A stretch of DNA of 64,000 nt from positions 1 to 64,000 of the IMG/VR virus record IMGVR_UViG_3300009008_000029, one strand, 5' to 3'. The position numbers and the translations under genes are program-made. The notes below the pieces were generated by a model. That model did no database searches. It had not been told where the DNA came from and saw nothing but the letters and a program-made list of their open reading frames with translations. Of the stretch, positions 44-34,100 are shown piece after piece. Origin of the DNA: a virus. Positions within the stretch are counted from its first letter, which is position 1, and every line of letters starts with the position of its first letter.

Positions 44-502
44 ATGCCGAGATATGACTATCAGTGCGAATGCGGTTTGATCTTTGAGGGTTACGCTTCT
101 ATGACCGACAGCATGTCCCAGAAGGAATGTCCTGATTGCGGCCAGATGGCGGGCAGAGCAGTCCCGGAGTCGGTTGAAGGGAACTTTGACCACGACGTGT
201 CCGGCCCGGTCCCCCAGAACACGGGTATTTCCCAAATCGATGCCATTGCGGATCGAGCCATCGGGAAATCAGCACGTAAGGGGTGGGAGGTCGCCGACAA
301 GCGGGTCCAAGACAAACGCAGGGTACTAGCCGGGTCGGAAGCCACCGGGCATGACCTTTCCCGGAATCCTGATGGGAGTTACAGGGTTATGACCCCGGAG
401 GAGAAGGGTGTCCATGAACGGTCTCAGGAAATCCACAGCAAGGCCATGACGGAGCTTCTGAAAAAGAGGAAAAAGGCAAAGGCTGCGCCCCCCTCCCCGT
501 AG
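44..502 (+). CDS. FmdB-like zinc-ribbon protein
   Basis: A 152-aa protein. Its N-terminus has the FmdB/CxxC_CXXC_SSSS look: MPRYDYQC, Cys8 and Cys10, then Cys29 and Cys32 in a CPDC knuckle. These four cysteines would bind one zinc. The first pair is C-x-C rather than the usual C-x-x-C, a small deviation. Residues 40-152 are polar and charged with a Lys/Ala/Pro-rich tail and no recognisable fold. The start is supported by AAGGAGG four bases before the ATG. FmdB-type ribbons are common small genes in phage structural regions, but their role there is unknown; DNA or protein binding is only inferred. It precedes the sheath gene on the same strand with a gap of about 250 bp. Confidence 0.75.
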   Translation: MPRYDYQCECGLIFEGYASMTDSMSQKECPDCGQMAGRAVPESVEGNFDHDVSGPVPQNTGISQIDAIADRAIGKSARKGWEVADKRVQDKRRVLAGSEATGHDLSRNPDGSYRVMTPEEKGVHERSQEIHSKAMTELLKKRKKAKAAPPSP

Positions 503-750: not shown

Positions 751-3700
751 ATGCCATTTCCGGGGAAGAATTACGCCCCTCCGGGGCCGTACACGCAAAC
801 GAAGTTCGAAAACCCGTTGGGTCAGGCACTGGAGAGCCTGAAGATTCCCGTCATTATCGGTGAGGGGAACGAATCGCTCTTCCAAGAGGATCTGGAGATT
901 GTCCGGGGTTCCTCCGCTGTGATCGATCAGCGGGTGGTGAACGAGGACCAGACAGGCCGGGCCGTATCCAGTGTCTCCGCAACCGGGGTTGTGACTCTTG
1001 GTTCGTGGAACGGTGCTCTCGACAAGTTTCAAGTAGTCAACCGTCCCATCGTATCTGGTGACGGTACGGGGACTACGACGACGAGCCGAGGCGATGTTCT
1101 GGTGACCGTCAACAACCAGCCGGTCGTAGTGTTGTCCGTTGACGGGACCACCGGGATCATTCAGATTGCGGATACCCCGGCGGCAACCGATGTAGTGCGT
1201 TGCACGTACTACTTCAACCGGACCGATACCCTCGTCACCGACGATGTATCCTCTCAGGTTCCGACCGAATCGGCGACCGTCCGGGCACAGTCCGGCATTG
1301 CCGATGTAGACGCCCCGAACGCTGGTGTTGTTGTCATCGATATGCACGGTGACATCCTCAGCGACGAGGGAGCCGTTATTGTACCAGCCAACAACGTCCT
1401 GTCCCTGACGGTTGACGGTGTTGCTCGTACCGTGACGATTCCCGCCAAGAGCGACTACACGATGGCCCAGATCGCTGCGGCAATTACGGCGGCCAGTGCT
1501 GGGAGCCTGACGGCCTCGACGTTTGCTGACAACTACGGGCACTCGGCCCTGATGCTTCTGGCTGACCACAGTGTTGCGGTCGGTGACGGGAGTGCCAACG
1601 GGGATCTGGGTCTGATCAGCGGTCAGGCTGACAACCGGGTTTCGACCTTCTACACCATGAACGGTCCCATCGTTGATGGTTCCGGCGGTGGTGTTGTGAC
1701 CACCGACCCCGCCCATGTGACGGTTCGGGTCAACGGTACACAGGTCATTCCCACATCGGTTGACGGTGCTACCCGAGCGGTGACGCTGGCGGAGGCTCCC
1801 GCAGCCAATGCCACCGTATCCATCCAGTACTACTGGAACACATGGCAGGACACTTTCGATTACCTCGCCCACGTTGGGGTTACTGCGGTATCCCGTTGCG
1901 GCGACGTTCCCGGAAGCTCCGCCTACACCGAAGAAGCTGATTTCATCCTCCAGAATGACCGTATCGTCTGGGGTACGGCTGCTTTGACAGAAGCTGGGCT
2001 GACAACGACGGGTGCAACCCTGTTCGATGACACCCAGATCACCAACACTCTGATCGACAACCGCAACTTCCTTGGTGCTTGCACCGCAGTTACGGACTCG
2101 ACCGGTGGTGTTGCTACCGATTCCCGCACGGAGTTCCAGCTTCCGTTTACCCCGACGCTGGGTAACGGGCGTGACACCCCGTTGGGGCAGAGCCTGTTCC
2201 AGACCATCAGCAACAGCCGCATTGACCTCCCGGTCAACCGCCCGGATGTTGTTTGGGCATACTGGGGCTACGATGAGCAGGATGCACTGGTACGGGGCCG
2301 TGTCACGGTGACCAAGGTAGAGGGTACCGTGATCACGTTGGCTTCCGCTGTGCCTCCGGGTGCCAACGTCTATGCGACCCAGTACTACAACACCCTGACG
2401 GACGAGACCTACACGCTGACCTGTGCAACGGCTGGTGTGTCCGGGGTTGGCCAGTACACGATGCAGGATTCTGGTGAGAACGACGTGTACGGGGCAACGA
2501 TGGTTGCCGGGAGCAAGGGCGCAGGGCTGACCGGGATCACGGTTGAGTTCCCGTCCGGGTCCGAGATGACCCCTGATTTCCGTCTGGAGAGCAACAGTGC
2601 CACGACGTTCGTAGGCCCAGTTGAAGAAGTTGTGACCGTTGAGTTTGCTGCACGGACGGCGACTCCGGCGAAGTGGGCTGTTCCGGGTTCTGGGAACTAC
2701 TCCTTCATTTCGGGTCAGTCTGACAAGCTCCGCATGACCGTCCATAGTGTGGATGTTGGTGGGGCTACGGGACTCAACCTGAGTAGCCCTTCGGCAGCCA
2801 CGACCCATACGGGAGGCTTCTTTGCCACCTTGGTCGGGGATGAGATCGTCTACTCCAAGGAGAGCGGTGACGCAGCCACGGCGGGTCAGGGGTTCACCAT
2901 TTCGACCTCCGAAGAGTTCGTCCTTCTGGTGGACGATGCCACGGTGACGGTCAAGACCAACGTGGTGGATGACGTTGATGCGGGCTACCTCGCCCGGTAC
3001 ATCAACGACGCAGCCAGCGGGCACAACTCCACAGCAGCGGCCAACGAAGCCGCAACCGATACCATCACTTTGGATGTTGACCTCGCCAGCAATCAGGACG
3101 ACTACTACAATGGTTGGAAGATTGTCATCGGGAACGGTGCGAGTGCGGTTACAGCCGGGCAGGTTACGACCATTACGGACTACGTAGGGTCCACAAATGT
3201 TGCTACCGTGAGTCCCGCTTGGGAAGGCGGGGACCAGAAGATCGATCTGGGTGACGCCTACTACATCTACAACCCGGACGCACGTTCATCCATGAAGGGT
3301 GCAACCCGGTTCAACGGTCCCACCGTGATCACGGCGAATGAGTTCGACCAGATGCGGGTCATCTACAAGGGTGACAATTCAACGGAGGCAATCCTTAGCC
3401 TTCAGTTGGATGAAGCCACTTACGCCTCCGCCACGACATTGGCCGCTGAGGTCAACACGCAGTTGGCGGCGGCAGTTGCTACGGCGATTGGTGCGGGCAA
3501 TGTCACCATCAAGGGTCTGATCATCGAGTGTGCTGCGGATAGTGATGGTCGGATGGAGTTCAAAATCCAGCTTCCCGGTGTGGATGGTTCGGGGTTCATT
3601 CAGTTCCTCTATCTCGATCCCGCTTCCGACGCCAAGGATTTCTGTGTCCTTGCGGGTCTCGACAAGGCAGCCTCGGCAGGTGCCGGTCAAGCGGCTCTGA

Positions 3701-6063
3701 TTCAGGGTCCGATTGCCCGTACTTACGAGTGCCCGGATACGGGGGCAACCAAGAACTTCGACCGGATCATCCTCCGTAACCGGCTCCTGCCGGGTGGTGG
3801 CGGTTCGGTGGCCCCTTGGGACATCGTAGACCAGTGCAAGTTGGAAGTTCAGACCGGGAACACCAAGTGTGCCCTCTCCACGGGGATGACCGGTACCGCC
3901 GGTTCCCGTGCCGTTGTCAACCCGGCAACCATGTTGGGTCGGATCGGCATCACCGGTGGTCAGGATTCTGAGGGTGACCCTGTTGTGACCCTCTACAACG
4001 GTGAGGGAACCCAGCCCGCCAACAACGTGTTTGATTTTGAGATGGACGGAACCCCCGTTACCGTGACCTTCACAGCGGCGGCGGATGGTACGGCCACTCC
4101 CATCGGACCGGAAGGGACCGCAGGGTCGCTTCTGTATCAGATCGTTGCGGCGATGGCAGCCGTTCCAGGTGCGCCTTTCGGGAATGCAACCGCAATCGGT
4201 GAAACCAACTTGCTGGCTCGCATCGAGGGTTGCGGGATTCGGTTGACCAGTGCAGTGTCTACGGCGGCTTCCAATATCACCATCGGCTCTGGTTCAGCGA
4301 ACACCATCCTCGGGTTTGGGTCCGGTTCCTCAGCGTCCCGGACGCTTGTGACGCCGAAGGCTCTGGCTTCGGCACTCAACGCCCATCGGAACAGCACGTT
4401 CGCCACATGGTTGAACGTGTTGGCCACCACGACCGGGAGCTTCTCCAGGTATGGCATCGCCAGCACGGTGCTTGATGCTGCGGGTGCAGAGTACTTGTAC
4501 CTTCAGGATGCACCGACACTGGTAGCCAATCTCGGTGCTGCATCCAACGTGTCCGTGCAGACCCCAACGGGCAGTGTGCAGGATGCCCTCCGATATGATG
4601 CTGGGCTGAATGCTACCGCTGGTGACGGTGCTGTAGGGGAACCTGCAATCGATGGGTTTACCGTGACCTCCGGGAACCCGGATGGTTCCGGCTCCGCCAA
4701 CACCTCCATTCTCAACGACGGCACAGGTCAGGACGGTGTTGTAGGCCAGACCTACCGGGATGACGTGACGGGCCTTACTTTCACGATCCTTCCGAGGGGT
4801 TGGAGCAGTGACCAGACCGGTCCTTGGGTTTCATACCCGACTGGTGACACTGCCCTCTTCCGTATCCGGGTCTCCAAGACCATGACCGCCAACAGCAACA
4901 TCCCTCAGAATGCCGTTCCGGGCGTTGAGATGAAGGTTGCCAACACGGTCGGCGTTGACGTAGGGGACACGGCTACCGTTCAGACGTTTGAACGGAGCGG
5001 GAATGAACCCGCAATCGGCGACCTGTACTACGCCTCCTACACCTACACCAAACAGGATTTCACCACGCAGTTCTTCACCAAGATGTCTGCGGTTGAGAAT
5101 GCGTTCGGTGCAGGTGTCCCGGACAACCCCGCATCGCTCGGTACGTATCTGGCGATGATCAACGGGGCGGTTCTCGTAGGGGTCAAGCAGGTGCAGCGTG
5201 CCTCTGGGTCGAGTCAGGCCAGTCTGGTGAGCTACCGCTCGGCGGTAGACGAGCTTGAGGGTGTCCTGCCCGGATTCGTCAACCCCGACATTATCGTCCC
5301 GATGCGGGGCGACTCGACGGACCTCTATACGTTGATCAAGCGGTCCTGCGAGAAGATGTCCAGTATCCGGTACAAGTCGGAACGGACGGCCATCGTAGGG
5401 ACGGCAGCCGGTACGCTGCCAGCGGACGTCAAGCTGATGGCTCAGACGTTGGGCAATGCACGTATGCGGATCGTGTACCCGGACATGGCAGTTCTGTCCA
5501 TTCAGGATGGTGTCACCGGGGAAGCCACCGAGTACGTTGTTGACGGGACGTTCGTTGCCGCAGCCCTCACTGGTTCGGTTGTGAGTCCGAACCTCGACGT
5601 TGCGACACCTTGGACAGGACGGAAGCTGGTAGGGTTCACACAGCTTGCCCGGATTCTGGACCCGGTCGAGATGAATCAGGTCGCTCAGACTGGTGTGACG
5701 GTCATGGAGACCAAGCCGCCGTTCCTGCGGGTACGTCACGGTTTGACCACCGACATGTCCAACATCATGCAGAAGACCCCGACGGTGATGATGATCGCCG
5801 ACGAGGTTCAGCGTCAGGCCCGCAACGTGATGGAGAGTTTCGTAGGGATCAAGTTCCTCGGAACTGTCTTGAGTCAGGTCGAAGGTCGGTTGGCGATGAT
5901 GTTCAAGCGGATGGTTGCGGCCCAGATCGTAGCCGCCTACACGGGCATCAAGGCCAACGTCAGTGCCGCCGACCCGACGGTTGCCGAGGTAGAGGCATGG
6001 TACAGCCCGGTCTGGCCGCTCCTCTATCTGGTGATCACCTTCCACATGCGGTCTAGCGTATAA
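751..6063 (+). CDS. Oversized contractile tail sheath protein
   Basis: A 1770-aa protein that would polymerise around the tail tube and contract at infection. The N-terminus (NYAPPGPYTQT, residues 7-17) is the usual sheath opening. The last 400 or so residues resemble the sheath core: LGTYLAMINGAVLVGVKQV near 1468, YRSAVDELEGVLPGF near 1494, and a C-terminal VWPLLYLVITFHMRS strand that in sheath families links neighbouring subunits. Typical sheaths are 400-700 aa. Here roughly residues 45-1240 are extra beta-rich material likely displayed outside. Two copies of one module (about 97-168 and 305-373; shared PIV-G-G, SVDG-T, PAA and YY-N-DT) show internal duplication. A second module type ends in ILGFG near residue 1190. 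The start has GAGGTG five bases upstream. A strong terminator follows at once. Confidence 0.9.
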   Translation: MPFPGKNYAPPGPYTQTKFENPLGQALESLKIPVIIGEGNESLFQEDLEIVRGSSAVIDQRVVNEDQTGRAVSSVSATGVVTLGSWNGALDKFQVVNRPIVSGDGTGTTTTSRGDVLVTVNNQPVVVLSVDGTTGIIQIADTPAATDVVRCTYYFNRTDTLVTDDVSSQVPTESATVRAQSGIADVDAPNAGVVVIDMHGDILSDEGAVIVPANNVLSLTVDGVARTVTIPAKSDYTMAQIAAAITAASAGSLTASTFADNYGHSALMLLADHSVAVGDGSANGDLGLISGQADNRVSTFYTMNGPIVDGSGGGVVTTDPAHVTVRVNGTQVIPTSVDGATRAVTLAEAPAANATVSIQYYWNTWQDTFDYLAHVGVTAVSRCGDVPGSSAYTEEADFILQNDRIVWGTAALTEAGLTTTGATLFDDTQITNTLIDNRNFLGACTAVTDSTGGVATDSRTEFQLPFTPTLGNGRDTPLGQSLFQTISNSRIDLPVNRPDVVWAYWGYDEQDALVRGRVTVTKVEGTVITLASAVPPGANVYATQYYNTLTDETYTLTCATAGVSGVGQYTMQDSGENDVYGATMVAGSKGAGLTGITVEFPSGSEMTPDFRLESNSATTFVGPVEEVVTVEFAARTATPAKWAVPGSGNYSFISGQSDKLRMTVHSVDVGGATGLNLSSPSAATTHTGGFFATLVGDEIVYSKESGDAATAGQGFTISTSEEFVLLVDDATVTVKTNVVDDVDAGYLARYINDAASGHNSTAAANEAATDTITLDVDLASNQDDYYNGWKIVIGNGASAVTAGQVTTITDYVGSTNVATVSPAWEGGDQKIDLGDAYYIYNPDARSSMKGATRFNGPTVITANEFDQMRVIYKGDNSTEAILSLQLDEATYASATTLAAEVNTQLAAAVATAIGAGNVTIKGLIIECAADSDGRMEFKIQLPGVDGSGFIQFLYLDPASDAKDFCVLAGLDKAASAGAGQAALIQGPIARTYECPDTGATKNFDRIILRNRLLPGGGGSVAPWDIVDQCKLEVQTGNTKCALSTGMTGTAGSRAVVNPATMLGRIGITGGQDSEGDPVVTLYNGEGTQPANNVFDFEMDGTPVTVTFTAAADGTATPIGPEGTAGSLLYQIVAAMAAVPGAPFGNATAIGETNLLARIEGCGIRLTSAVSTAASNITIGSGSANTILGFGSGSSASRTLVTPKALASALNAHRNSTFATWLNVLATTTGSFSRYGIASTVLDAAGAEYLYLQDAPTLVANLGAASNVSVQTPTGSVQDALRYDAGLNATAGDGAVGEPAIDGFTVTSGNPDGSGSANTSILNDGTGQDGVVGQTYRDDVTGLTFTILPRGWSSDQTGPWVSYPTGDTALFRIRVSKTMTANSNIPQNAVPGVEMKVANTVGVDVGDTATVQTFERSGNEPAIGDLYYASYTYTKQDFTTQFFTKMSAVENAFGAGVPDNPASLGTYLAMINGAVLVGVKQVQRASGSSQASLVSYRSAVDELEGVLPGFVNPDIIVPMRGDSTDLYTLIKRSCEKMSSIRYKSERTAIVGTAAGTLPADVKLMAQTLGNARMRIVYPDMAVLSIQDGVTGEATEYVVDGTFVAAALTGSVVSPNLDVATPWTGRKLVGFTQLARILDPVEMNQVAQTGVTVMETKPPFLRVRHGLTTDMSNIMQKTPTVMMIADEVQRQARNVMESFVGIKFLGTVLSQVEGRLAMMFKRMVAAQIVAAYTGIKANVSAADPTVAEVEAWYSPVWPLLYLVITFHMRSSV

Positions 6064-6069
6064 CAAGGG

Positions 6070-6101
6070 GGGAGGGCATCTACGGATGCCCTCCCTATTT
6101 T
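6070..6101 (+). terminator. Intrinsic terminator after the sheath gene
   Basis: A perfect 11-bp stem (6070-6080 with 6085-6095) closes on TACG, giving the very stable c(UACG)g tetraloop in RNA, followed by TATTTT. It begins seven bases after the sheath stop codon. On the opposite strand the same stem is followed only by CCC and TTGTT, so it may also weakly stop the leftward operon that ends at 6327. Confidence 0.92.
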
Positions 6102-6326: not shown

Positions 6327-6752
6327 CTAAAGAATCTTGACCGATTCAGGAGTGGCCGATTCCTTTGCAGGGATAACGACCCTGACGATGCCATTGGCGA
6401 TGGTTGCGTTGGCCTTGGTGGGGTCGTAGATGTCGGGGAGGCGTGCTTCAGCAACGAAAGTATCCTCCTCCGGGATCAGTTTCCCGTCACCCCGGACAGG
6501 CACCTCAATCTGAAGTGACCCTGCGACGACCTCGATTTTCGACCCCTTCTTGATGGCCCCCGGAACGGTGGCCACATAGGTCATCTGTTCCTTTCCGTAA
6601 TCCACACGGTGAGACCCGAAACGAGTGGTGAACATGTCGCTCTGCGGTTCCGAAGGGTTGAGTGAAACACCATCAGATCCAAAGACCTGATGCATCAAAC
6701 CGTCGGGGCCGAAAACATCTCCGAAAAGGTGGTTGTGTCTTTTGCATGTCAT
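6327..6752 (-). CDS. Hsp20-like small heat-shock protein
   Basis: A 141-aa protein, the last gene of the leftward operon. Small heat-shock proteins hold unfolding proteins in soluble complexes without ATP. The alpha-crystallin fold is suggested by the beta-rich segment at about residues 50-130 and its end, ANGIVRVVIPAK, which matches the family's A-x-x-x-NG-hydrophobic-IP pattern. The C-terminal VKIL resembles the I/V-x-I tail that docks between dimers. The N-terminal arm (FGDVFGPDG, FGSDG) is Gly/Phe-rich, as is common. AGGAGG seven bases upstream supports the start. Length is typical. The canonical A-x-x-x-n-GVL motif reads GIV, so the match is recognisable but divergent. It may protect phage or host proteins during infection. 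Confidence 0.7.
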   Translation of the reverse strand: MTCKRHNHLFGDVFGPDGLMHQVFGSDGVSLNPSEPQSDMFTTRFGSHRVDYGKEQMTYVATVPGAIKKGSKIEVVAGSLQIEVPVRGDGKLIPEEDTFVAEARLPDIYDPTKANATIANGIVRVVIPAKESATPESVKIL

Positions 6753-6806
6753 GGCTAATCCTCCTTGCCGTCTACGTCCTTGAAAGTAGTAGAGAAAGGA
6801 GGGTTG

Positions 6807-7412
6807 TCAAGCGTCCGTGCGATGGGCTCGGATGTCCGCTGCACGGGTCAGCATCCCATGAATGTTGCGTTGCAGACGCTCCTCAATCCAGACACCGAGG
6901 TCGTAGAACCCGCCGCTGATGCCTTTGCCCCGTGCCACCATGATCTGGATCAGGGGGCAGACGAGTTCGATGGTCTCGTAGGCGTACTTCTCCAACCATT
7001 CGGGGCTGGAGGCGATGTTGAAATCCATCGTGTTGTGAAGCCGGTCGAACAACTTGATGGCCAACACACGGGGATGAGCCAGAGACAACATGGTGAAGTA
7101 CACGTCGGGATTGGTCTCACCGATCTTCGATTTGGAGAGCATGGCAACGGTCCCGGCCACGTTCCGCCCATACCGTTTGACCAGATCATCCCAAGAGAAA
7201 CCCGGTGAGTCCTCTTTGATGTCATGGAGCAAGGCCGCACACTTGTCATCGTCCGAGAAGAAAAAGGGACTCTCTTCCATCAATTCCAAGATGCGGAGCG
7301 GGTGGGTGTAATAGGGAACGCCTGTGTTCTTGCGCTTCTGCCCTTCGTGAAGCTCCTTCATCCACGCAATGCAGTCCCTTACCTTAGCCGTTCGGATTTT
7401 GATAGATGGCAT
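6807..7412 (-). CDS. SpoT/MESH1-like HD hydrolase (predicted ppGpp hydrolase)
   Basis: A 201-aa single-domain HD hydrolase. SpoT and MESH1 enzymes use a metal to remove the 3' pyrophosphate of (p)ppGpp. All expected motifs are visible: His37 in YYTHPLRIL, His63-Asp64 in ALLHD, Glu67-Asp68 (the ED catalytic pair) and Asp123 in KLFDRLHN. No synthetase, TGS or ACT domain is present, so it is a small alarmone hydrolase type. I chose the ATG at 7412, which has GAGG five bases upstream. An earlier in-frame ATG at 7460 would overlap the upstream gene by 41 bases. It starts eight bases after the DUF4313-like stop and is followed by the Hsp20-like gene. By inference it lowers alarmone during host starvation; related hydrolases also act as antitoxins, but no synthetase toxin is adjacent. 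Confidence 0.85.
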   Translation of the reverse strand: MPSIKIRTAKVRDCIAWMKELHEGQKRKNTGVPYYTHPLRILELMEESPFFFSDDDKCAALLHDIKEDSPGFSWDDLVKRYGRNVAGTVAMLSKSKIGETNPDVYFTMLSLAHPRVLAIKLFDRLHNTMDFNIASSPEWLEKYAYETIELVCPLIQIMVARGKGISGGFYDLGVWIEERLQRNIHGMLTRAADIRAHRTDA

Positions 7413-7419
7413 TTCATCC

Positions 7420-7707
7420 TCACTTGAGCCTCCATACCGGTTGGCCCTGTATGAACCCATAAGAAACCTTCTTTCCTGTGTCTTCGAAAAGCCCGGAGGT
7501 CATCAGTGCCTCCTGATAGGCGGGACGGATATCGTGGTTGAGGATGAACTCACCCTCCTCCAACGGGATCTCTACGACATTGATGCTGATGGTCGCATAC
7601 GGACCCTCGTACTCGGATACGGAACGAACGGCGATATTGCCGGTGGCGTAGTTGAGAACGTCGATATAGTGGGTTTCATCCTGAAACGTCAGTTTTTTGA
7701 TGCTCAT
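7420..7707 (-). CDS. DUF4313-like small protein
   Basis: A 95-aa protein, first gene of the leftward operon, with GGAGG upstream of the start. It has a pattern I associate with DUF4313 proteins of phages and plasmids: a short beta-rich N-terminus (KKLTFQDE), GNIAVRS, the core GPYATISINVVEIPL, then TSGLFEDTGKK and a C-terminal GFIQGQPVWRL. The family has no established function. The gene sits opposite the MerR-type regulator gene across a 127-bp control region and is probably cotranscribed with the hydrolase and the Hsp20-like gene. The coding call is firm; the family name is from memory of the pattern. Confidence 0.6.
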   Translation of the reverse strand: MSIKKLTFQDETHYIDVLNYATGNIAVRSVSEYEGPYATISINVVEIPLEEGEFILNHDIRPAYQEALMTSGLFEDTGKKVSYGFIQGQPVWRLK

Positions 7708-7772
7708 TTGGCACCTCCATCTAACCTCTCTACTCCTACGCCCGCAGGGATGAACCCCCGCAACAAAATAAT

Positions 7773-7808
7773 TCGACAGAAAACTTGACAGTGAATTTGA
7801 CAGTGTTA
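7773..7808 (+). repeat. Three tandem 12-bp repeats (operator candidate)
   Basis: TCGACAGAAAAC, TTGACAGTGAAT and TTGACAGTGTTA follow each other without gaps, so GACAG recurs exactly every 12 bases (7775, 7787, 7799). The array spans the -35 box and the spacer of the rightward promoter. MerR dimers normally bind an inverted repeat between -35 and -10, whereas these are direct repeats, which is unusual for an operator of this family. Confidence 0.6.
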
Positions 7809-7812
7809 TCTT
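7785..7812 (+). promoter_or_regulatory. Sigma-70-like promoter for the MerR/VIT-vWA pair
   Basis: A perfect TTGACA (7785-7790), a 16-base spacer and TATCTT (7807-7812) lie about 20 bases upstream of the start codon. The 12-bp repeats overlap it, so the regulator encoded just downstream may control its own transcription. The 16-base spacer is shorter than the 19-20 typical of MerR-activated promoters, which argues for repression rather than twist activation. Confidence 0.6.
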
Positions 7813-7834
7813 AGGGGGCGTGAGGAGGTGAAAG

Positions 7835-8239
7835 ATGGAGAGTCAAAAATACTCATTGGCGGAGTTGGCGGAGGTTGCGGATATCACGGGCCGTAAGATT
7901 CGCTACTACATTGCGGAGGGGGTGCTTCCGGGTCCGGTATCGAGAGGACGTCAGGCTCGGTACACCGAGGAGCACCGGAATCTGTTAGGTGAGATTCAGA
8001 GGTTACAGAAAGAGGGGCGTTCGTTAGAGGAGATCCGTGACTGTCTCAAGGGGCCACGTCCTACGTCTGTTCCACGGTCGGTGACCCCAACGGCGGAGCA
8101 CCCCACCGTGTGGGAGGAGTATGGAGTAGCTGAAGGCATGCAGTTGCGGCTGCGGAGTGATGCACCTCTGGGCCGTAGACAACAGTTCAATCAGATTTTG
8201 GCGGCAGCCCGCCAGATAGTAGAAGGGAGGGAATCATGA
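7835..8239 (+). CDS. MerR-family transcriptional regulator
   Basis: A 134-aa protein. Residues 6-70 form a MerR-type winged helix-turn-helix: YSLAELAEVADITGRKIRYY for the recognition helices, then EGVLPGP and the wing (RGRQARYTEEH), then a helix with LEEIRDCL. No cysteine pattern for metal sensing is seen. After a Pro/Thr-rich linker, residues 103-134 (WEEYGVAEGMQLRLR, then a helix ending AAARQIV) form a short C-terminal segment that may sense a signal or contact its partner. The ribosome-binding site is close to ideal. The stop codon overlaps the start of the VIT-vWA gene by four bases (ATGA), so translation is probably coupled. It likely regulates the promoter at 7785 and perhaps the divergent operon. 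Confidence 0.9.
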   Translation: MESQKYSLAELAEVADITGRKIRYYIAEGVLPGPVSRGRQARYTEEHRNLLGEIQRLQKEGRSLEEIRDCLKGPRPTSVPRSVTPTAEHPTVWEEYGVAEGMQLRLRSDAPLGRRQQFNQILAAARQIVEGRES

Positions 8240-10773
8240 ACACAGCAGTTGCAGGGAATGTTCTTCTCGACCCTATGACCCGAACAGAGATCCCTCTGGC
8301 AATGCAACGGATGGGACTGACGGGTCGTGTGGGTCCAAATGGTGGTGTGTTGACCGTGACACACCATTTCCAGTGCAAGGGTATCCGTCCGATGGAAGCC
8401 TTGTACGTCTTCCAACTCCCCAGAGGGGGTGCCCTACGCAAGTTTCTGGTGAAGGGTAAGGATTTTCAGATCGAGTCCCAGTTATCACCCCGTGCGGAAG
8501 CCAAGAAGACGTATGAGGAGGGTGTAGACGCCGGGCATTTGTCCACACTGGCCGAAACCAGTCTGGATGGCGTTGTGACACTGGCTATCGGACAGGTGCG
8601 TCCCGATGAGACGGTTTCTGTTGCCGTTGAGATTGTGGGCGGTGTGGAGACCCGTGACCAAGGGTACCGATTCCGGTTCCCGTTCACGTTGGCTCCCAGC
8701 TATCATTCCAAAGCCAATGCGGTACCAACGGCGGGGGGTGGCAAACTGGAGCTTCCCGGTGATGTGTTTGAGGATCTGGTCTTACCAGAGTGGCGTGAAG
8801 ATGCTTCGGGTCTCCACGAGGTAACCTTCCAGATGAGGGTCGAGACCGACGGCAAAGTAGGGACAATAGCGTCCCCCTCTCACAACATCACGGTTCAACC
8901 GAATGACGATGGAACGGCTGACATCTGGTTGGCGGGGCTTCACGACCAGCCGGATAGGGATCTGGTTGTGGATGTTACAACCAAGGAGCCTTCAGTTGTT
9001 GTGCATGTAGATGAGTCTTTGACTACGGACAAGCCGTCGAAGCCGTCGGTCAAGGGGAGTCCACGGTGGAAGATCAGTGTTCCGTCCCATCTGGTCCCGC
9101 AACAGCCGCAGCAACCCCGGCGGGTTTGTTTCGTGCTGGACCGTTCGGGTTCCATGAACGGGCCTCGGATAAACAAAGCGAAGTTGGCGTTACAGGCTTG
9201 TCTGACGGGGCTTCAGAGCATCGATCAGTTCGGGTTGCTGGCCTTTGACCACAATGTCTCCGTCTTTCATGAACAGATGGCCGAGGCTTCTGACAGCAAC
9301 CGGACGGAAGCCATCCGATTCCTGAATGGCATCCAGTCCGGTGGCACAACCGAGTTGTCCACTGCGTTGGCTGCGGCGGTCCAGATTCTGGGCGGTCCGG
9401 GCGGGGACGTGTTCCTGATCACGGACGGGGAGGTTTGGGAGACCGGTCCTATCATCGAACAGGCCGCAGCATGCGGCAGCCGTATTCATGTGTTGGGTGT
9501 GGGTGAAGCCTCACAGGATCGTTTTCTGGCGTCACTGGCCCGCCGGACGGGTGGGGTCCAGAAAATGGTCAACACGACCGAGGACGTGGCAACAATGGCG
9601 TTGGAGTTGTTCAATGCGGTGCGTACTCCTCGTCTGATGGAAGTGTCGGCTCTCGTTGAGACGGCGAGCGGGGGTGAGACCCAGAAGCATGACATCGGAA
9701 CGGTTTGGGAGGGCCGACCCATTGAGATCATGGACAATGGTACTTCCGGGACGTACCTCCCGGTCCGTGTGGGCTTTTGCTGGGGTCCGAGTGAGAATAC
9801 AACGGTAGACCTTGCGGGGGCTTGCCGTAAGGTTCCTGACGGCGAGTTGGCCCTCGTATGGGCCGGACAGCAGGTAGAGGATCTGGAAGCGGCTCTCGAT
9901 ATGACAAAGAGCGGACCGGCCCGTGTAGCCGTTGAGCAGGAGTTGAAGGAACTGTCGGCGGGGTACGAGCTTGCCAGCCGTGTCATGTCACTGGTCGCCG
10001 TCCATAAGAGGGTCGGGGATCAGGCGGGTGAGACCCCGGAGCAGAAGATGGTTCCGGTAGGTATGCCTTCGGATATGGTCGGTCAGGGGGGAGTTTTCGG
10101 CAAGGGTGTCCTTCGGTCAGCGTCCCTGAACTTCTGTTCCTCCACCGGTGGAGGAACTACCTCTAGGGGTCTGGACATGGCGGATGCTCATCCGAGCACG
10201 TCATATGCAGCGGCTACCAATACTGCGTCCCTCAGTTGTGAGACGCAGACCAGCGGGAGTTGGTCGTTGGATACGTCGACCACAAAGGGTCACCTCGGCG
10301 GCACCCGGAGTCGGAAAATGTCTGACCCGTACAAGAGCATCGTTTTTAACGATACGATGGCTGAGAATCTCCTCCAGATGGCGGGAGGTGTCATTGCCTA
10401 TCTGGGTGACCTCAAGAGTGACGGTGGGTTGCCGGGCGATGATATGGCGACTCGGATGGCAAAGACGGCGGTACTGGCCAATCTGGTTCTCCAGAGGAAA
10501 ATCCAGTCCCGTTCCAGTGCTTTCACAAAGCACCTCATCAAGATGGCTGATTTCTTGGACGCCCATAAGGAGTCTTTCCCGGAACTCAACCGGGTCGGGT
10601 GGAAGACCTGTGAAATCATCGGGGCCATTGTTGATGTGTTTCGGGCGGGGACTGAGTTGCTTCCCGCTACTGATGTTGAATGGGACCGTGAATTTGCGGC
10701 CTTCTATCAGAAAGCGACCTTGTCAGCGGATGAGGTCGCCGACATCTGGACGAATTTGTCTCCCCTGAGTTGA
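8236..10773 (+). CDS. VIT and von Willebrand A domain protein
   Basis: An 845-aa protein. Residues 1-155 match a VIT domain (vault/inter-alpha-trypsin): YVFQLPRGGALRKF, then a helix with RAEAKKTYEEG, then GQVRPDETVSV. Residues 297-470 are a vWA domain with an intact metal-ion-dependent adhesion site: Asp302, Ser304 and Ser306 in LDRSGSMNG, a Thr in SGGTTEL and Asp in LITDGEV. Segment 574-592 (GYELASRVMSLVAVHKR) matches the conserved stretch after vWA in this family. The C-terminal 150 residues are mainly helical. No signal peptide or membrane helix is visible, so it is probably cytoplasmic. In cellular organisms such proteins bind partners through a divalent metal. It is cotranscribed with the MerR gene. 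A substrate cannot be named. Confidence 0.92.
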   Translation: MNTAVAGNVLLDPMTRTEIPLAMQRMGLTGRVGPNGGVLTVTHHFQCKGIRPMEALYVFQLPRGGALRKFLVKGKDFQIESQLSPRAEAKKTYEEGVDAGHLSTLAETSLDGVVTLAIGQVRPDETVSVAVEIVGGVETRDQGYRFRFPFTLAPSYHSKANAVPTAGGGKLELPGDVFEDLVLPEWREDASGLHEVTFQMRVETDGKVGTIASPSHNITVQPNDDGTADIWLAGLHDQPDRDLVVDVTTKEPSVVVHVDESLTTDKPSKPSVKGSPRWKISVPSHLVPQQPQQPRRVCFVLDRSGSMNGPRINKAKLALQACLTGLQSIDQFGLLAFDHNVSVFHEQMAEASDSNRTEAIRFLNGIQSGGTTELSTALAAAVQILGGPGGDVFLITDGEVWETGPIIEQAAACGSRIHVLGVGEASQDRFLASLARRTGGVQKMVNTTEDVATMALELFNAVRTPRLMEVSALVETASGGETQKHDIGTVWEGRPIEIMDNGTSGTYLPVRVGFCWGPSENTTVDLAGACRKVPDGELALVWAGQQVEDLEAALDMTKSGPARVAVEQELKELSAGYELASRVMSLVAVHKRVGDQAGETPEQKMVPVGMPSDMVGQGGVFGKGVLRSASLNFCSSTGGGTTSRGLDMADAHPSTSYAAATNTASLSCETQTSGSWSLDTSTTKGHLGGTRSRKMSDPYKSIVFNDTMAENLLQMAGGVIAYLGDLKSDGGLPGDDMATRMAKTAVLANLVLQRKIQSRSSAFTKHLIKMADFLDAHKESFPELNRVGWKTCEIIGAIVDVFRAGTELLPATDVEWDREFAAFYQKATLSADEVADIWTNLSPLS

Positions 10774-10918
10774 ACCCACCCCGTTAATTTGCCTTTGACC
10801 TGTCCTCATAGATAGGAGAGGGCAGGTCGATATCCCGCCTCGGGATCGTTGATCCGCCTATATACGAGCTTAGGTGAGAGCGAACGCTGAATCGAAGCGT
10901 AGCTGATGGAGGCTTCTA
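10774..10918 (+). promoter_or_regulatory. Leader before the tail tube gene, with stem-loop
   Basis: ACCTGTCCTC (10798-10807) pairs with GAGGGCAGGT (10818-10827) over ten positions with one G-U pair and a ten-base loop. A weaker stem (ATCCC with GGGAT) follows near 10833-10847. Neither has a U-tract. A TATATA at about 10859 has no matching -35. The tube start at 10919 is preceded by GGAGG. Tail-tube transcription must restart somewhere after the sheath terminator, so a phage-type promoter may be here, but none is evident by consensus. Confidence 0.4.
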
Positions 10919-11773
10919 ATGGCAGATCCAAATGCGGGAAAGAATCAGGACATCAACCCCCAGAACGGGGTAGGTGGGACGTCGTACCTGTATGATTTCG
11001 GAACCTCACCCAATACCCGGACAGCGGTCTCCCAGAAGGTTCGCATCCTGACGCCTCACTACGGGTCGTCACAGGCGATGCACCAGATGGGCGTCCTGTC
11101 ATCCTTCAACCCCACCCAGAGTCGGACGGTTGAGCCGGTTCGGGGCGTGGGTTTCGGGGATAAGGTAGCGGAATTGGTGCCGAGTGTGACGGAACCGACG
11201 ACGGGTTCCTTTGAGCGTGCCCTCCTGTACTTGTGCAATCTGTGGCAAGCAACGGGATACGCAGCGGGCGTCGACGGCCCAGTCAGGTCGTTGGCTCACC
11301 ACAAGTGGCCGTTCGATATGGAGCAGCAGCTTGTGTTCAGCACGCTGGCTGATCAGGACATGGGCGGGAACGCCAACACTGGCTACGGTGGTTCCGCCGG
11401 GAATTTCGACGGCGGCGTGAAGGCCATCGGATTCCCGCAGGTAACCCACAATGGGAGTCAGGGGTCACCGGATCTGGTGCCTGAGAATCGGGGTCACTCA
11501 GCCATTATCACCATTTACGAAGCCGCATGGTTCACCTCTTGGTCCGTGACGTTCTCCAAGGACGCCGGAATGATCATGGAGTCCGGGGACGTCAGCATCA
11601 GTGACGTTCACGATTTCGCCAGTGTCTACGGTGAGTTCCTCGCCACTGGTAACGACCCCACAATCGGCCAGTTGGGTTCCATCCGGTTCGCTGAAGGGTT
11701 CGCTGAGCCGAACATCGCATCGGCAGGTGGCGGCATTGAGGGTGGTAACACCATCTCGGCCTTTGTCAGCTAG
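10919..11773 (+). CDS. Probable tail tube protein
   Basis: A 284-aa protein that would stack into the inner tube carrying DNA. The call rests on position (the first structural gene after the sheath, before chaperones and tape measure), size, and a beta-rich body. QLVFSTLADQDMG around residue 138 is followed by YEAAWFTSWSVTFSKDAG near 200, reminiscent of tube-type beta sandwiches. The N-terminus is flexible (NAGKNQDINPQNGVGG) and the C-terminus is Gly-rich. GGAGG six bases before ATG supports the start. No catalytic motif is present. It is separated from its usual neighbour, the sheath, by the 4.8-kb accessory block. A tail terminator or another tube-like protein is the main alternative. Confidence 0.7.
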   Translation: MADPNAGKNQDINPQNGVGGTSYLYDFGTSPNTRTAVSQKVRILTPHYGSSQAMHQMGVLSSFNPTQSRTVEPVRGVGFGDKVAELVPSVTEPTTGSFERALLYLCNLWQATGYAAGVDGPVRSLAHHKWPFDMEQQLVFSTLADQDMGGNANTGYGGSAGNFDGGVKAIGFPQVTHNGSQGSPDLVPENRGHSAIITIYEAAWFTSWSVTFSKDAGMIMESGDVSISDVHDFASVYGEFLATGNDPTIGQLGSIRFAEGFAEPNIASAGGGIEGGNTISAFVS

Positions 11774-28134: not shown

Positions 28135-31100
28135 ATGGGCGTTAGATTCCAAGGACACGTACTTAGGGGGGCTCGTATTGCCCCCAGTAATTCTATCACC
28201 ACCGGTGAACCCAACACGGGGGTCGTTCGTTTTCCGATTACCCTTCCGGCGGCGTATACCCTAGATGCCCCCGAGTTTGTGGACCCAGCGGCAGACCAGT
28301 ACAGGGCGTCCATCCTTCAAGGTCCGGGGACAACCCCCACAGAATATCTGGTGTGGGCGCAGAACTCTTCCCAGTTGGCATTGCTGGACGATGGTGACTC
28401 ATGGTGGACTGAGGACGGAGTAGGAACAATTCCGCAAGGGACCATCCCGGTCACCAACAATGATCCCCCTGAAGTTGCCGAGGGTGCCACCGTACCCACC
28501 ACTTACGGGACCGACCGCATCGTGGTTACGGATAACGGAGGTCGCAACATCTCCAACATCATCGTTATCGTCGTTGCCCGAGGTGACGTGGACTATGACG
28601 ACGATGGTTGGAAAGACGATGATGAAGAGAGTGTCCTCCCCAGTGACTGGGCGGGACAACCGAGGGACGGCGACACCCCGTACATCACATTGGAGATCGA
28701 TAGTCTCCAGCAAGTTCCCGACGCTGGGTTGGTCTACCTGACGGAGGCACAGAAGACGGAACTGGGTGGCGGTGTGTCCCTTGAACGAGGTGACCAGATC
28801 ATCTCAGTCAGGTACACGGCGGCCCCTGCTCGATTCTGGTGGACCCGCAATGATCGTTATGAGACTCGGTTTGGTTGGAATGGCAAGAAGCAGCGGTGGC
28901 AGCCCTACAAGGGTACCGGGGCTATCAACGTAGGCACCCTTCAGTTTGGTGTCACCTACAAGATGGACCCGCCAATTAGGAACATGCCGGTGGGTTCCTA
29001 CCTGCCGGGGGACAGCACGACCCCAGATTCCTACAGCACTCTGCGGGTTGGTTCCGATGCGGGGGCTACTGGGGTTCCCGTAGGTAACGTCCGGGTCAAG
29101 AACAACTCCGAGTTGGAAGAGTTTGATTTCTCTACCGAGCCTGTCCTGAACGCAGTGATGGGTCAGAGCAATGGGGAACTCAAGTTCAACCCCTCGTTCG
29201 TCCAACAACATGCTGGGAAAACCATCTGGTTCAACTACAGCGGTTTTCAGGAGAAGGCCGACGGAGTAGTGGGGGCGTTGTATCAGGCGGATTTGAATCC
29301 CTTGTATGTTGCGCCGGTTCCCGGTCCTACTGATTTCCCCTTCATCCGTCTAGGTTCCCGGAGACCTCTCCAGCCGACACTGGTTGCAACTGAGGCGGCT
29401 TTGGAAAATGCCGATGCTCCCGCTTCCGGTTCCGTTTTGGTTGCCTTGTCCACAGGACGACTCCGCCTTGCTCTGGATGATGTCAGGAAGGCGGACCCGG
29501 ACCGTGAGGATGATTTCGATAAGAATTATCTGGGTGAGAACGTCTACTACGACGGGGTGGCCTTGAATGCCGTCCCGCAATCTGTCCGCCCGGCGGTTCA
29601 ACTGTTAGACGGAGACGGGGATGAAGGGGTTGCCAACAGTGACGTTCTTTACGTGCCCGACGCCGAGTACCTGCCCTCAGAGTTTGCCGCAGACGACCAA
29701 TGGCGTGGGTTAGGGGTCTCCGGGATTCTGGATGTGCCGGATGGAACCGGGTCACTTCCGGTGCTGCCCGGTGTTGCTGCAAGTGTGCGGCCCGGCGGTG
29801 ATACTCTTGCTGCGGCATCCACGGGCCGTATCCGTCAGGTCAGTGACGGGATCGGCGACACCATCATTTTCACCCGGAAGGGCGCAATCGAGACTCTTGT
29901 TGAGGAGAGTACCGATGCGGACCTGCCCTCGATGGGTTTTCAGGTCAAATCGAGCAAGGCGTACATTGCCCTTGAACGTGGGGCGCACGGGTCAAGGGTC
30001 TTCATAGGGAAGAAGGATAGGAAGCGGTTCGGTGACAGTCCCATTTACTTCCTTCAGGCGTCCCTGACCCCGGCGGTTCGGACTACGAGTGCCGAGATAT
30101 ACTCCCGGAACCGTACAATCTTCCGATTTGACGGAACTGAGACCCTGTACTTTGCCGTCGATGGTGTGTCACACGTCTGGACTCCTACCACGTTGATAGG
30201 ATCGGACCTGACAGCATCCTTCTTTACCCCCACACAGGTCGCTGCTTCGCTCAATGCGGACAGTGTCCCGGCTGGAACTTTTGCCAGTGAACTGAACGGA
30301 CGTATCCGGTTGTATGGTGAGACCTCCGTTGAGATTGGTTTCGGGACAACCGAAGAAAAGGATTTGACCGGGTGTGCCGCACTGGGGTTCGCACCGGGTT
30401 GGCGTGTTGTTAATGGCGTTTCCAATTGGTTGCCCGACTCAGGTGTGTCACTGGGTTTGACCCGCAGCCCCGTGAATCTTGACCGCAGCCAGTCGGACCC
30501 CGATTTCAAGGCGGATGTCCGGGTAGAGGACATGTTGCTGGTCAAGAGTGTCCAAGAGGCACCCTATGTGTTCCTTGACAACCCGCCCCTTCAAGACGTT
30601 GCTGGGGTCGATTTCAATGTGTTCTTCAACCTGACGACCACGGTGCTTGAAAATCTGACCCTTCGGGTCATCAACACCCCTTTGCGCCACTATGAAGACA
30701 TCATCCATAGATTCGGCAATGACCGTTTTGACTGGGTAGAAGAGGGAGCCACCGTAGCACCTATCGAGCAGCCGACCTCCACGTTGACATTGGGAACCCC
30801 GAATCTGGTGTTGGACTCAATGCGTGCGGCTCCGGGAATTGGCGGTGGTCTTTGGATCACCGGGGACACCGGAGTCATGGGTTTCCAAGACCCGGATACC
30901 GATTACGTCTTGCCCCTTGATGGTTTGCCGGGGAGCGTCACCCTGATTGAGAGATTCGGGAACCGTGTTACCTATGGGGGTCTGGGTACTTGTGAGGCAG
31001 GAGGAATAGTCTTTACGGATACCGCTGCTGATTTCTTGTCCGAACTGGCACCAGTAGAAGAGGGTTATCGACTCAAGATTTCCTCTGGGGAGAATGCTGG

Positions 31101-34100
31101 TTCCTACAAGATTGAGGACGTATCTACCACTTCCTTGATGGTTACACCCCCTTTCCTAGCCTCGACCGACCGACCCGTAGCATGGGAGGTTTTCCGGGGG
31201 TACACCGATGATGTGTATGACCCGGCCCTCGTAGCGGACATCACCTACAAGAGTTTTGATCACCTGCCAGAAGAACCTTTCAAGATTCGTTTGCTGCATC
31301 CTGTAGGGACTGTGGGTGACATGACGAACGCCCAAGTAGAGGGTGCTGTCAGCAGCGGACGTATCGTCACCTTACGGTTCGGTCTGGTGGCCCCCACGTC
31401 GTCCACTGAGGCCACTTTGACGCCTTTGGGCACCGAGGGGTTAGGTCCGATGGCAAACGGCTCCTTGGACCTTCCTGACGTGACCTCGGCGAGATTCACG
31501 GGACAGGCATTTGCGATCCAGATTGGGACCACGGAGTACAGCGGTTCGAATGTGGTAGGGGTCACGGAGTTCAGTGCCGATCCCGCATGTATCGAATACA
31601 TGACTGCGGCGGGCGTTGAGAACGACGTGGCGGTGCCCAAGGGACGGCTCAAGTTCAGCACAACCCTCATCAGTCAATATGGCACGGCTCCCGTCACCTA
31701 CCGGGAAACCTTCATGGCTCCTGCATCACTCACAGCAGGAGAAGCAGAGTTCAACCCCGTGTCAGGTGCCTTGAACATTTCAGCAGCCGATGCTGTGACC
31801 CATGCGGGCAAGAACCTGTACTTTGTAGAGCAACTCATCACCGAGGATGAGAAGGATGTAGCCATCAACCCCCAGTCTGGTGCTTTTGCTCCCAACGTCC
31901 CAGTGCCGAAGGGGGCTGTTGTGGAGGTGGAGTATTGGAAGGCGGACCTTGAGGGTCGGAAAATTGGGTCGCTTGAGACCGAGTTCCTCTCGGTGTTCAT
32001 CCAGCGTGAAGCAGCCACCCGTGAAAAGGAGAACGTCTACCGGTTCAACTCTGCCGGGATGACGATAGATGAGCGGGTAGACCCGACCGTTTGGATCGGG
32101 GCCATGATGCAGAATTTCGGGCAGGTCGATTGTATCGTAGATTACCCCGATGGTGCTACCGGAGAGGGCCGCATCACATTCGTCAGCAAAACGGTTGATG
32201 CAAATGACCCGGTAGCGGTGACCTATGCCGTCTTTGAGGCCCAAGGTGGGGAGCGGACTTTTGAAGCCAGTCAGAAACCCCTTTACCGTCCGCCCTTCTT
32301 CATCAAAGAAGCCCAGTACCAGTTCGGGTTGCGGGGGGATCGGGTTGATGAGTTCTTGCCCGGCCAGATGCTTCGGATCGGGGAGGACTGTTTCTACATC
32401 AAGAGTCTCAAATACTTCCCGGAGACGGATACCGGCGGGGATGTGACTGCCGTTCGGATTTTCCCTCACACGGTGGGGGAGGTAGGCAGCCGGTCTCCGG
32501 GTAACGATGTACTCAGACTGATTTCTACAATCCCGGTGACGACGGTTGTGGACCCCGACGGGGAAACTCCTGTGGCGACTACGGCTCCCGCCGGGTTCAT
32601 GTCAACGATTGACTGTACCGTGTTCCCGTTTGAGCCTGTGAGTAGGGGCCAGAAGACCATCGTTTTCAAGGGCGACCTGACCCAGTTTGCAGTTCCCGGA
32701 CATCTTCTGGAGATTGCCGGGTGCCCACATGCAATCTCGGACACCAAGATGTCCGAGGATGGCTCCTACACCCTCATTACGGTGACGGGTGGTTTTGTGC
32801 GGGGCTACGATGTGCTGGAAGCCCCCACCATCAAGCTCTCCTACCGGCCTGTTTACCCACCAGAGACACGAGATTTCCTCGGTTGTGGGCCGATGTTGGA
32901 GTCCGAGAATGTTGAGTTGGTTCTGTTCGGCGAGACCAACGCAGCGGGACAAGTGAAGCCGGGGCGTACATTGGTTCCCGGTGTTGAGTACTTCGCTGAC
33001 CCCACCTCGGGGACTATCAACCTTCTGAGCCCCTCTCAAGATGCTCTGGGGGCGGGGCAGACGCTCACCCTTTCGTTCACACGGTTGCGGACAGTTGGGC
33101 CTGTCATGAAGGATCAGGCTCTGACGATGCCCTCGTATAATGCCACGTATCTCTACAACACTCTCCCTAGCGTCTCCAACGGATTCCTGAATGGTCAGGT
33201 GACCGCCACATACACCTTCCACAACCCGGACAGCTTTTATTTCCGGGCGGTTTCTTTGCAGCAGTTCTTGGGGGAGGCCACAAGGGAAGCGGTTGCAGAG
33301 ATCACTAGCAAGGTTCCGGCGGGCGGGGCCGTAGGGGGGCAGCCCGCATCCGAGAACTGGGAGATGGGCCGGTTTGGGATACTGGGGGAACGGAAGCACT
33401 TGTTGGACAAGGACCGTGCGGCACGGGCGTTCCTATCCTTCTACAACGACAGCATCGTCATGTTTGAGCAGGTGAAGGAGGCCATTTCCGGCGGGATTGT
33501 TGGTGACCGAGATGGGAAGTTCCGATTCTGGGTAGGGCATGACAGGGAGTATCCCACGCCGGGATACGAGGATGAGATCAGTGGACTCCTGACCCCCCGT
33601 AACGTGTGGGCAGATGTGTTCCAATCGCACCGGTACAAGACGCTCTATGTTGACTCCAGTGACTACCTCACGACCCCTATGTCGGCGGGCCTCACCAACG
33701 CCGAAGTGTCCGGGACAAGTCCCGATAGTGATTACCTGAACAGTCTGCTGGCGGAGCAGGGGTCAATGGTCCAGAACGACATTGACGACATTGTGATGTT
33801 CCGTATGGGCAAGACGACGTATACCTTCATCCCGACGTTCCCGTTCTTCCGGTTCCGGGCAAAGGGTGTGTTTGCGGAGATGGGTTCGGAACACCGTTTC
33901 TCACGGCTGTACCCCACATTGAGCAAGGCACTTTTCCGGCTCCTTCCCGGTGTGGGTGCCGAGATTGATGCCGGAGATGGGTTTGATCCCGGAGTCTACA
34001 CCGCTGGACGAGAAATTGGCGGCAAGGACGCCAAGACTCGCAAGAATCAGATTGGCCAGTTGTCCAATCCGGTACTGGGCGAGATCGATGGGGTCAAGAG

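Follow-up and report, generated by a model that had tools for sequence, protein, structure and literature searches.

The window analysed here, 64,000 nucleotides of the 75,783-bp IMG/VR virus record IMGVR_UViG_3300009008_000029 (G000; positions 1 to 64,000), is best read as a piece of the tail module of a huge myophage, and its kin are phages of 300 to 485 kb. Between a giant tail sheath gene and a tail-tube candidate, it carries five divergently arranged open reading frames (ORFs), namely, genes for an Hsp20-like protein, a SpoT-type HD hydrolase, and a 95-amino-acid product (ORF95) on the minus strand and genes for a MerR-type regulator and a VIT-vWA protein on the plus strand (Table 1). A Shine-Dalgarno sequence is clear by eye before each of them. 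The same five genes at the same place had been picked out by an earlier sequence-only reading, which held them to be one functional cassette. On comparative grounds, MerR and VIT-vWA instead form an evolutionarily coupled pair of their own, with a predicted promoter motif common to phages and bacteria and a fixed place in one branch of huge phages.

The MerR/VIT-vWA pair and its promoter in huge phages

Both plus-strand genes belong to the families that the sequence-only reading had named. The MerR product shares the MerR-type winged helix-turn-helix (HTH) with BldC, CvkR, and HspR but has its own C-terminal extension, which was seen in the alignment with phage and bacterial partners. All of its scores against curated NCBIfam equivalogs fell far below the cut-off (HspR, 24 versus 105 bits). 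The VIT-vWA product carries a Pfam VIT domain (E = 1.7e-13, residues 39 to 132) followed by VWA_2 (E = 4e-13, residues 298 to 399), and the residues of its metal ion-dependent adhesion site (MIDAS), D302, S304, S306, T372, and D397, are invariant in 15 phage copies. Its AlphaFold model reached a predicted local distance difference test score (pLDDT) of 77 and a predicted template modeling score of 0.78, and the closest solved structure was ITIH1 (E = 2e-28, about 14% identity over the fold). VIT-vWA would be a cytosolic ITIH-like scaffold, predicted to bind protein in a metal-dependent manner. The ratio of nonsynonymous to synonymous substitution rates among four related phages was 0.10 to 0.19 for VIT and 0.05 to 0.11 for the tube gene; by this measure, VIT is under purifying selection.

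Most work on VIT-vWA proteins has been done in animals and protists (ITIH, VWA5A, PARP4). As in ITIH heavy chains, VWA5A/BCSC-1, and PARP4, the phage protein has a VIT and then a vWA domain, an intact MIDAS, and a C-terminal helical part. Unlike these eukaryotic proteins, however, both the phage copies and the paired bacterial ones come with a MerR gene, and they have no PARP or secreted part. A cytoplasmic, protein-binding member of the family is Vwa1 of Dictyostelium (PMC10539598). TIGR03788, the "marine proteobacterial sortase target protein," is homologous over residues 40 to 614 (E = 3e-61), yet the phage protein scores well under its cut-off (208 versus 552 bits). Full-length matches in BFVD came from giant viruses of eukaryotes (Fadolivirus, Terrestrivirus, and Tupanvirus), and no full-length VIT-vWA member from a phage was found in that database. 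The MerR/VIT-vWA pair was likewise not found in a jumbo-phage overview or a 2026 review within an open-access part of the literature. Here, huge phages are found to carry full-length members of the family, and so are bacteria, in which a dedicated MerR accompanies them.

When the VIT-vWA alignment was run against IMG/VR, 12 loci came back, all with the same tail setting; of the 465 loci matched by the tube alignment, the best 80 were taken, 64 of them distinct. These scans reach close relatives only, and since many IMG/VR records are fragments, the absence of a gene in related phages is a local statement. MerR lay directly 5′ of VIT in all 18 VIT-bearing phages (the window and 17 distinct loci), and in 13 of the 18 less than 200 bp separated VIT from the tube gene. 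In three phages, MerR is fused to an N-terminal MUG113/T5orf172 (GIY-YIG-like) domain (L006:14163-14888, L075:6636-7322, and L076:6554-7282), whereas the MerR of a close relative, L072, is unfused; exchange of the regulator appears to be faster than that of VIT or the tube. When VIT presence was placed on the tube tree, at least four changes were forced and seven were most likely, mostly within one clade (17 of 23 rows) plus L044, which leaves a single origin of VIT on that tree unsupported. The possibility that VIT-vWA was acquired recently from a bacterium with a sequenced genome was also considered and set aside; the scans gave just a 22% relative (genome_contigs) and nothing in INPHARED.

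The two strands diverge from a 127-bp control region that holds the TGACAGT repeats. The pair of TTGACAGTG copies found there is unique within the window and has a repeat period of 12 bp, which is why the pattern TGACAGT-N4-TGACAG had no match in the window. Of 17 distinct phages, 16 have TTGACA[GC][TC] no more than 120 bp from the MerR start, compared with 0.26 expected from dinucleotide shuffles, and none of 106 control regions upstream of tube and sheath genes has it. Tandem GACA[GC] copies 9 to 15 bp apart occurred upstream of MerR in 10 of the 17 (0.05 expected), and a -10-like hexamer follows the TTGACA element by 15 to 17 bp in most phages. The best spacers in phage MerR promoters were 15 to 18 bp long; the 19- to 20-bp spacer of the classical family members MerR, CueR, ZntR, and SoxR was not found among them. 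Direct repeats are also the arrangement used by BldC (PMC5859096). The motif AnnACATnATGTnnT of CvkR, a MerR-like repressor of a CRISPR-associated transposon (PMC9938897), differs from the TGACA[GC]T of the pair. The direct repeats and the conserved bases that follow TTGACA suggest a MerR operator, and the conserved motif makes this candidate directly testable. The promoter data also support a putative sigma70-like promoter of the pair itself, distinct from the motif before the tube gene, in line with the earlier proposal that accessory genes of the tail module are under separate control.

Table 1. Features of the sheath-tube region (window positions unless a locus is given)
Feature	Position	Strand	Basis or remark
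Giant tail sheath, left slot border	751..6063	+	1770 aa; C-terminal ~300 aa match annotated sheaths
Terminator-like hairpin directly 3′ of sheath stop	6070..6095	+	-27.5 kcal/mol, z -3.9; short T run
Probable Hsp20/alpha-crystallin small heat-shock protein, cargo	6327..6752	-	Pfam 5e-4, NCBIfam 1e-5, PDB profile 3e-5
SpoT-type HD hydrolase, hydrolase domain only, cargo	6807..7412	-	HD_4 2e-10; RSH structures 5e-13
ORF95 (95 aa), cargo	7420..7707	-	No family match
MerR-VIT promoter (predicted)	7785..7812	+	TTGACAGTG at 7785 and 7797; TATCTT -10
MerR-type regulator	7835..8239	+	Pfam MerR_1 4e-15; short conserved C-terminal extension (VW..VAEGVELRL type)
VIT-vWA protein	8236..10773	+	845 aa; start overlaps MerR stop by 4 bp
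Hairpins 3′ of VIT-vWA, possible terminator	10790..10848	+	77-nt stretch, -29 kcal/mol, z -3.2
Promoter-like motif TCGTT..N..CCTATAT 5′ of tube gene	10845..10863	+	Upstream motif count in related loci
Tail-tube candidate, right slot border	10919..11773	+	Synteny, strong conservation
ROS/MucR zinc-finger nuclease-like gene	L006:11625-13616; L044:2518-3996; 16 further loci		In slot, usually next to sheath

Bacterial counterparts of the pair

The phage pair has a homolog in bacteria, where the two genes are likewise coupled. An overlapping MerR/HTH gene precedes VIT-vWA on plasmids of Massilia, Nonomuraea, and Aquabacterium, and the annotation of the Massilia and Aquabacterium copies names VIT and VWA. 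A MerR alignment of 10 rows (A5) was searched over 395 Desulfobacterota genomes, and full-length matches of at least 110 bits were kept. There were 21 of these, with ordinary MerR proteins at about 71 bits or less, and VIT-vWA adjoins 19 of the 21. About five of the 21 are not independent, because 4 of the 10 alignment rows came from Desulfobacterota and had originally been found beside VIT; the remaining matches were found through MerR alone. Conversely, most Desulfobacterota VIT genes found with Pfam VIT have no such MerR, and the MerR-VIT pair is therefore a distinct subset. TGACA[GC][TC] was present in 19 of 24 bacterial MerR-VIT promoters, compared with 1.35 in shuffles, often as a dyad between a TTGACA -35 element and a TAT-rich -10 element. 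A conserved third gene downstream was also sought in bacteria and was found in just one related pair (L201 and L209). Two further observations concern the neighbors of bacterial pairs: at L163:7174-9477 (Desulfobacterota), the MerR/VIT pair is followed after 1.1 kb by a SpoT-type HD fragment, recalling the nearness of HD to the pair in the window, and another pair (L166) has an Hsp20 gene 8 kb away.

The sheath-tube gap and its cargo

The 1770-residue protein upstream of the slot had been called a sheath, and this assignment held. Its C terminus matches the annotated sheaths of Mycobacterium phage Phabba, Bacillus phage G, and Tunturi_5, the sheath-like match to other phages being confined to the C-terminal fifth of the protein, and full-length relatives are found in LR745208.1 (485-kb uncultured phage; 45% identity) and Tunturiibacter phage Tunturi_5 (309 kb; 32%). 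The tube assignment fared less evenly. Its position (sheath - X - two genes - tape measure) and strong conservation argue that the product is probably the tail tube, whereas no family or PDB match was obtained and the AlphaFold model (pLDDT 31) does not confirm a tube fold. Matches to tape-measure, gp25/sheath initiator, and baseplate J proteins come next, in that order, 3′ of the slot region. An FmdB-like zinc-ribbon gene (window 44-502) lies immediately 5′ of the sheath and is kept in related phages, and the tail module also holds a very large ORF of 3790 amino acids (window 28135-39507). An actin/ParM-like gene was noticed by eye upstream of the sheath in the tail module of several related huge phages (L032:2480-3493; L034, reverse strand; and L006:1192-2226).

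Sheath and tube genes had been said to be normal neighbors, which is overstated for this phage group. Among 51 distinct IMG/VR loci with both borders, the gap ranged from 97 to 9,128 bp and was shorter than 400 bp in just 2; the idea that the split is a peculiarity of this phage was rejected on the same count. A gene with a ROS/MucR zinc finger, an HTH, and nuclease-like features occupies the slot in 18 of the 51 loci, mostly directly 3′ of the sheath. This is presumably a free-standing homing-endonuclease-like gene, and it looks to keep the slot open. Other cargo domains include PLD, HNH, DNA methylase, RNA ligase, and SNF2, among others. Homing-endonuclease-like genes have entered the sheath-tube gap of huge phages repeatedly, and its use as a cargo slot accounts for the odd gene mixes found there.

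The borders of the slot carry candidate signals. Where a strong terminator had been claimed 3′ of the sheath, the hairpin is there but is followed on the plus strand by a short T run only; of 52 related loci, 33 have stable folds 3′ of the sheath. At 28 of 65 tube genes (3.6 expected), CTATA[TAC] preceded by a TCGTT-like block lies no farther than 120 bp away, and CTATA[TAC] was present upstream of MerR in 1 of 17. The TCGTT..CCTATA motif is possibly a late promoter of this phage group. In huge phages, a reverse-strand bS21 gene in the structural block is transcribed late with the structural genes (PMC9723584). Here too, a structural block contains a host-type gene that runs on the other strand; unlike the late bS21 gene, the MerR-VIT pair has a predicted sigma70-like promoter that differs from the tube motif.

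The three minus-strand genes have narrower distributions than the pair. The Hsp20 assignment made earlier is weak but supported; the Pfam score is 20.5 bits against a cut-off of 20.8, and a profile built with two relatives matches solved small heat-shock protein structures. Its counterparts among related phages are confined to the L003/L005/L006 lineage. The SpoT-like hydrolase was borne out, as all motif residues of RelA/SpoT homolog (RSH) hydrolases are present, with HPLRIL, LLHDIKED, and KLFDRLHN aligning with RelA/SpoT proteins of known structure. It shares these residues with RSH proteins and small alarmone hydrolases and has no synthetase domain; hydrolase activity is predicted on this basis. 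The protein is about 30 to 35% identical to phage-borne relatives, and an "HD-alarmone PDEase" of jumbo phages has been described (PMC7824862). A start at 7412 is likelier than one at 7460, because a Shine-Dalgarno sequence is present and overlap with the next gene is avoided. No counterpart of the HD gene was found at the slot in any related phage, including the 17 other VIT phages. ORF95 had been likened to DUF4313, a resemblance that was not recovered; the DUF4313 model gave no match up to E = 1 in Pfam, and ORF95 had no match in Pfam, NCBIfam, or PHROG beyond a weak best one to VipB_2 (E = 0.11). A weak match to ORF95 (E = 0.03) was found only in a 595-kb uncultured phage, and there was no counterpart in any of the 17 other VIT phages. 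None of VIT-vWA, HD, Hsp20, and ORF95 had a match in PADLOC.

Possible roles of the pair

We consider it fairly probable that the region is a composite, in which a two-gene MerR plus VIT-vWA core with its own promoter stands beside lineage-specific cargo on the other strand, and that this core is a conflict or host-takeover module. As for the pair itself, the likeliest reading is a module of regulator and scaffold that controls its own expression and that huge phages have captured. In the mechanism that we propose, MerR would bind TGACA[GC]T over or beside the -35 element of its own promoter and keep the pair low or poised. VIT-vWA, as an ITIH-like scaffold with an intact MIDAS, would bind a protein partner metal-dependently and would either relieve the regulator or sequester that partner, the phage pair acting in conflict, whether of phage with host or of phage with phage, or in host takeover rather than as a virion part. 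The sequence itself shows the pair and its co-inheritance, the promoter and its motif, the MIDAS, the predicted fold class, and the purifying selection; the binding, the autoregulation, the partner, the timing, and the function of the pair are what we infer.

Several observations weigh against the conflict or takeover role and the proposed mechanism. TTGACA is itself the sigma70 -35 consensus, and part of the promoter motif therefore needs no MerR; the operator leans on the conserved bases that follow TTGACA and on repeats in just 10 of the 17 phages. VIT is broken in L051 and in L069/L070, and L058 has no VIT, yet its tube is near-identical to that of L059. VIT is therefore accessory and dispensable at least sometimes. 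Around bacterial pairs, PADLOC gave 155 model matches in 110 neighbors and only 10 in 110 neighbors of ordinary MerR genes, a contrast that is overstated because PADLOC models are redundant; counted by locus, defense genes could be named near 5 of the 21 pairs (L163, L166, L198, L201, and L205), compared with a few of 20 controls. In addition, VIT lies on the tail-gene strand and near the tube in every phage that bears it, a placement that fits tail assembly too.

The defense genes near bacterial pairs are SspB/SspC, BrxC, Cas3e, ZacA, SoFic, AbiEii, TmtA, and type I restriction, and in L166 TmtA begins 22 bp 3′ of VIT. Pfam ADP-ribosylglycohydrolase was also found three times near bacterial pairs, two of these being near-identical copies in one genome. 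As a lead, this neighborhood hints at a link to anti-phage defense. A tentative extension of the composite reading would make MerR/VIT-vWA an undescribed self-regulated conflict module of bacterial defense islands, with a captured phage regulator that reads the same operator and can interfere with host copies. A counter-defense or decoy role, a narrower form of the composite reading and compatible with it, is likewise possible at modest odds. Here, the phage MerR would bind host MerR-VIT promoters, or VIT-vWA would capture a host defense protein, and the half-site TGACA[GC]T common to phage and bacterial promoters, the defense genes named above, and the match of the window MerR to the PADLOC mad1 HTH (E = 8e-9) are all consistent with it. 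However, the enrichment of defense genes is not properly controlled, the mad1 match covers the common HTH alone, and carriage of the pair by the host is unsupported.

The main rival to the composite reading, which we regard as rather unlikely, is that VIT-vWA is a tail morphogenesis factor, either a chaperone or a minor structural protein, with MerR just setting its dose. Beyond the position of VIT, it draws on MoxR-vWA pairs, which have been linked to the assembly of tails in Acidianus two-tailed virus and, as a proposal, in group 2.2 jumbo phages (PMC7824862). No MoxR gene accompanies VIT-vWA, however, and the pair has a predicted sigma70-like promoter to itself, with a hairpin and another promoter-like motif between the pair and the tube. 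Moreover, the homologous bacterial pairs have no adjoining tail genes, and near relatives of the phage are tailed with no VIT or with broken copies.

Least probable by far is the five-gene moron working as one stress-control programme of alarmone removal, chaperone, and metal-binding protein, to which the shared divergent region with its repeats, the Hsp20 gene divergent to MerR in the L006 lineage as well, and the HD fragment and Hsp20 gene near two bacterial pairs would be favorable; relatives hold MerR and VIT-vWA without HD and ORF95 in 17 of 17 cases and without Hsp20 outside one lineage, and the slot is elsewhere filled with unrelated cargo. The genes thus occur apart, the result that the sequence-only reading had itself named as telling against its cassette, and a joint programme of alarmone control, protein quality control, and metal binding is therefore unsupported as a conserved entity. 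The sole tie of the minus-strand genes to the MerR-VIT pair is the shared divergent region. Within the composite reading, HD, Hsp20, and ORF95 are plausibly lineage-specific morons separate from the pair, with putative roles in alarmone removal for HD and protein folding for Hsp20.

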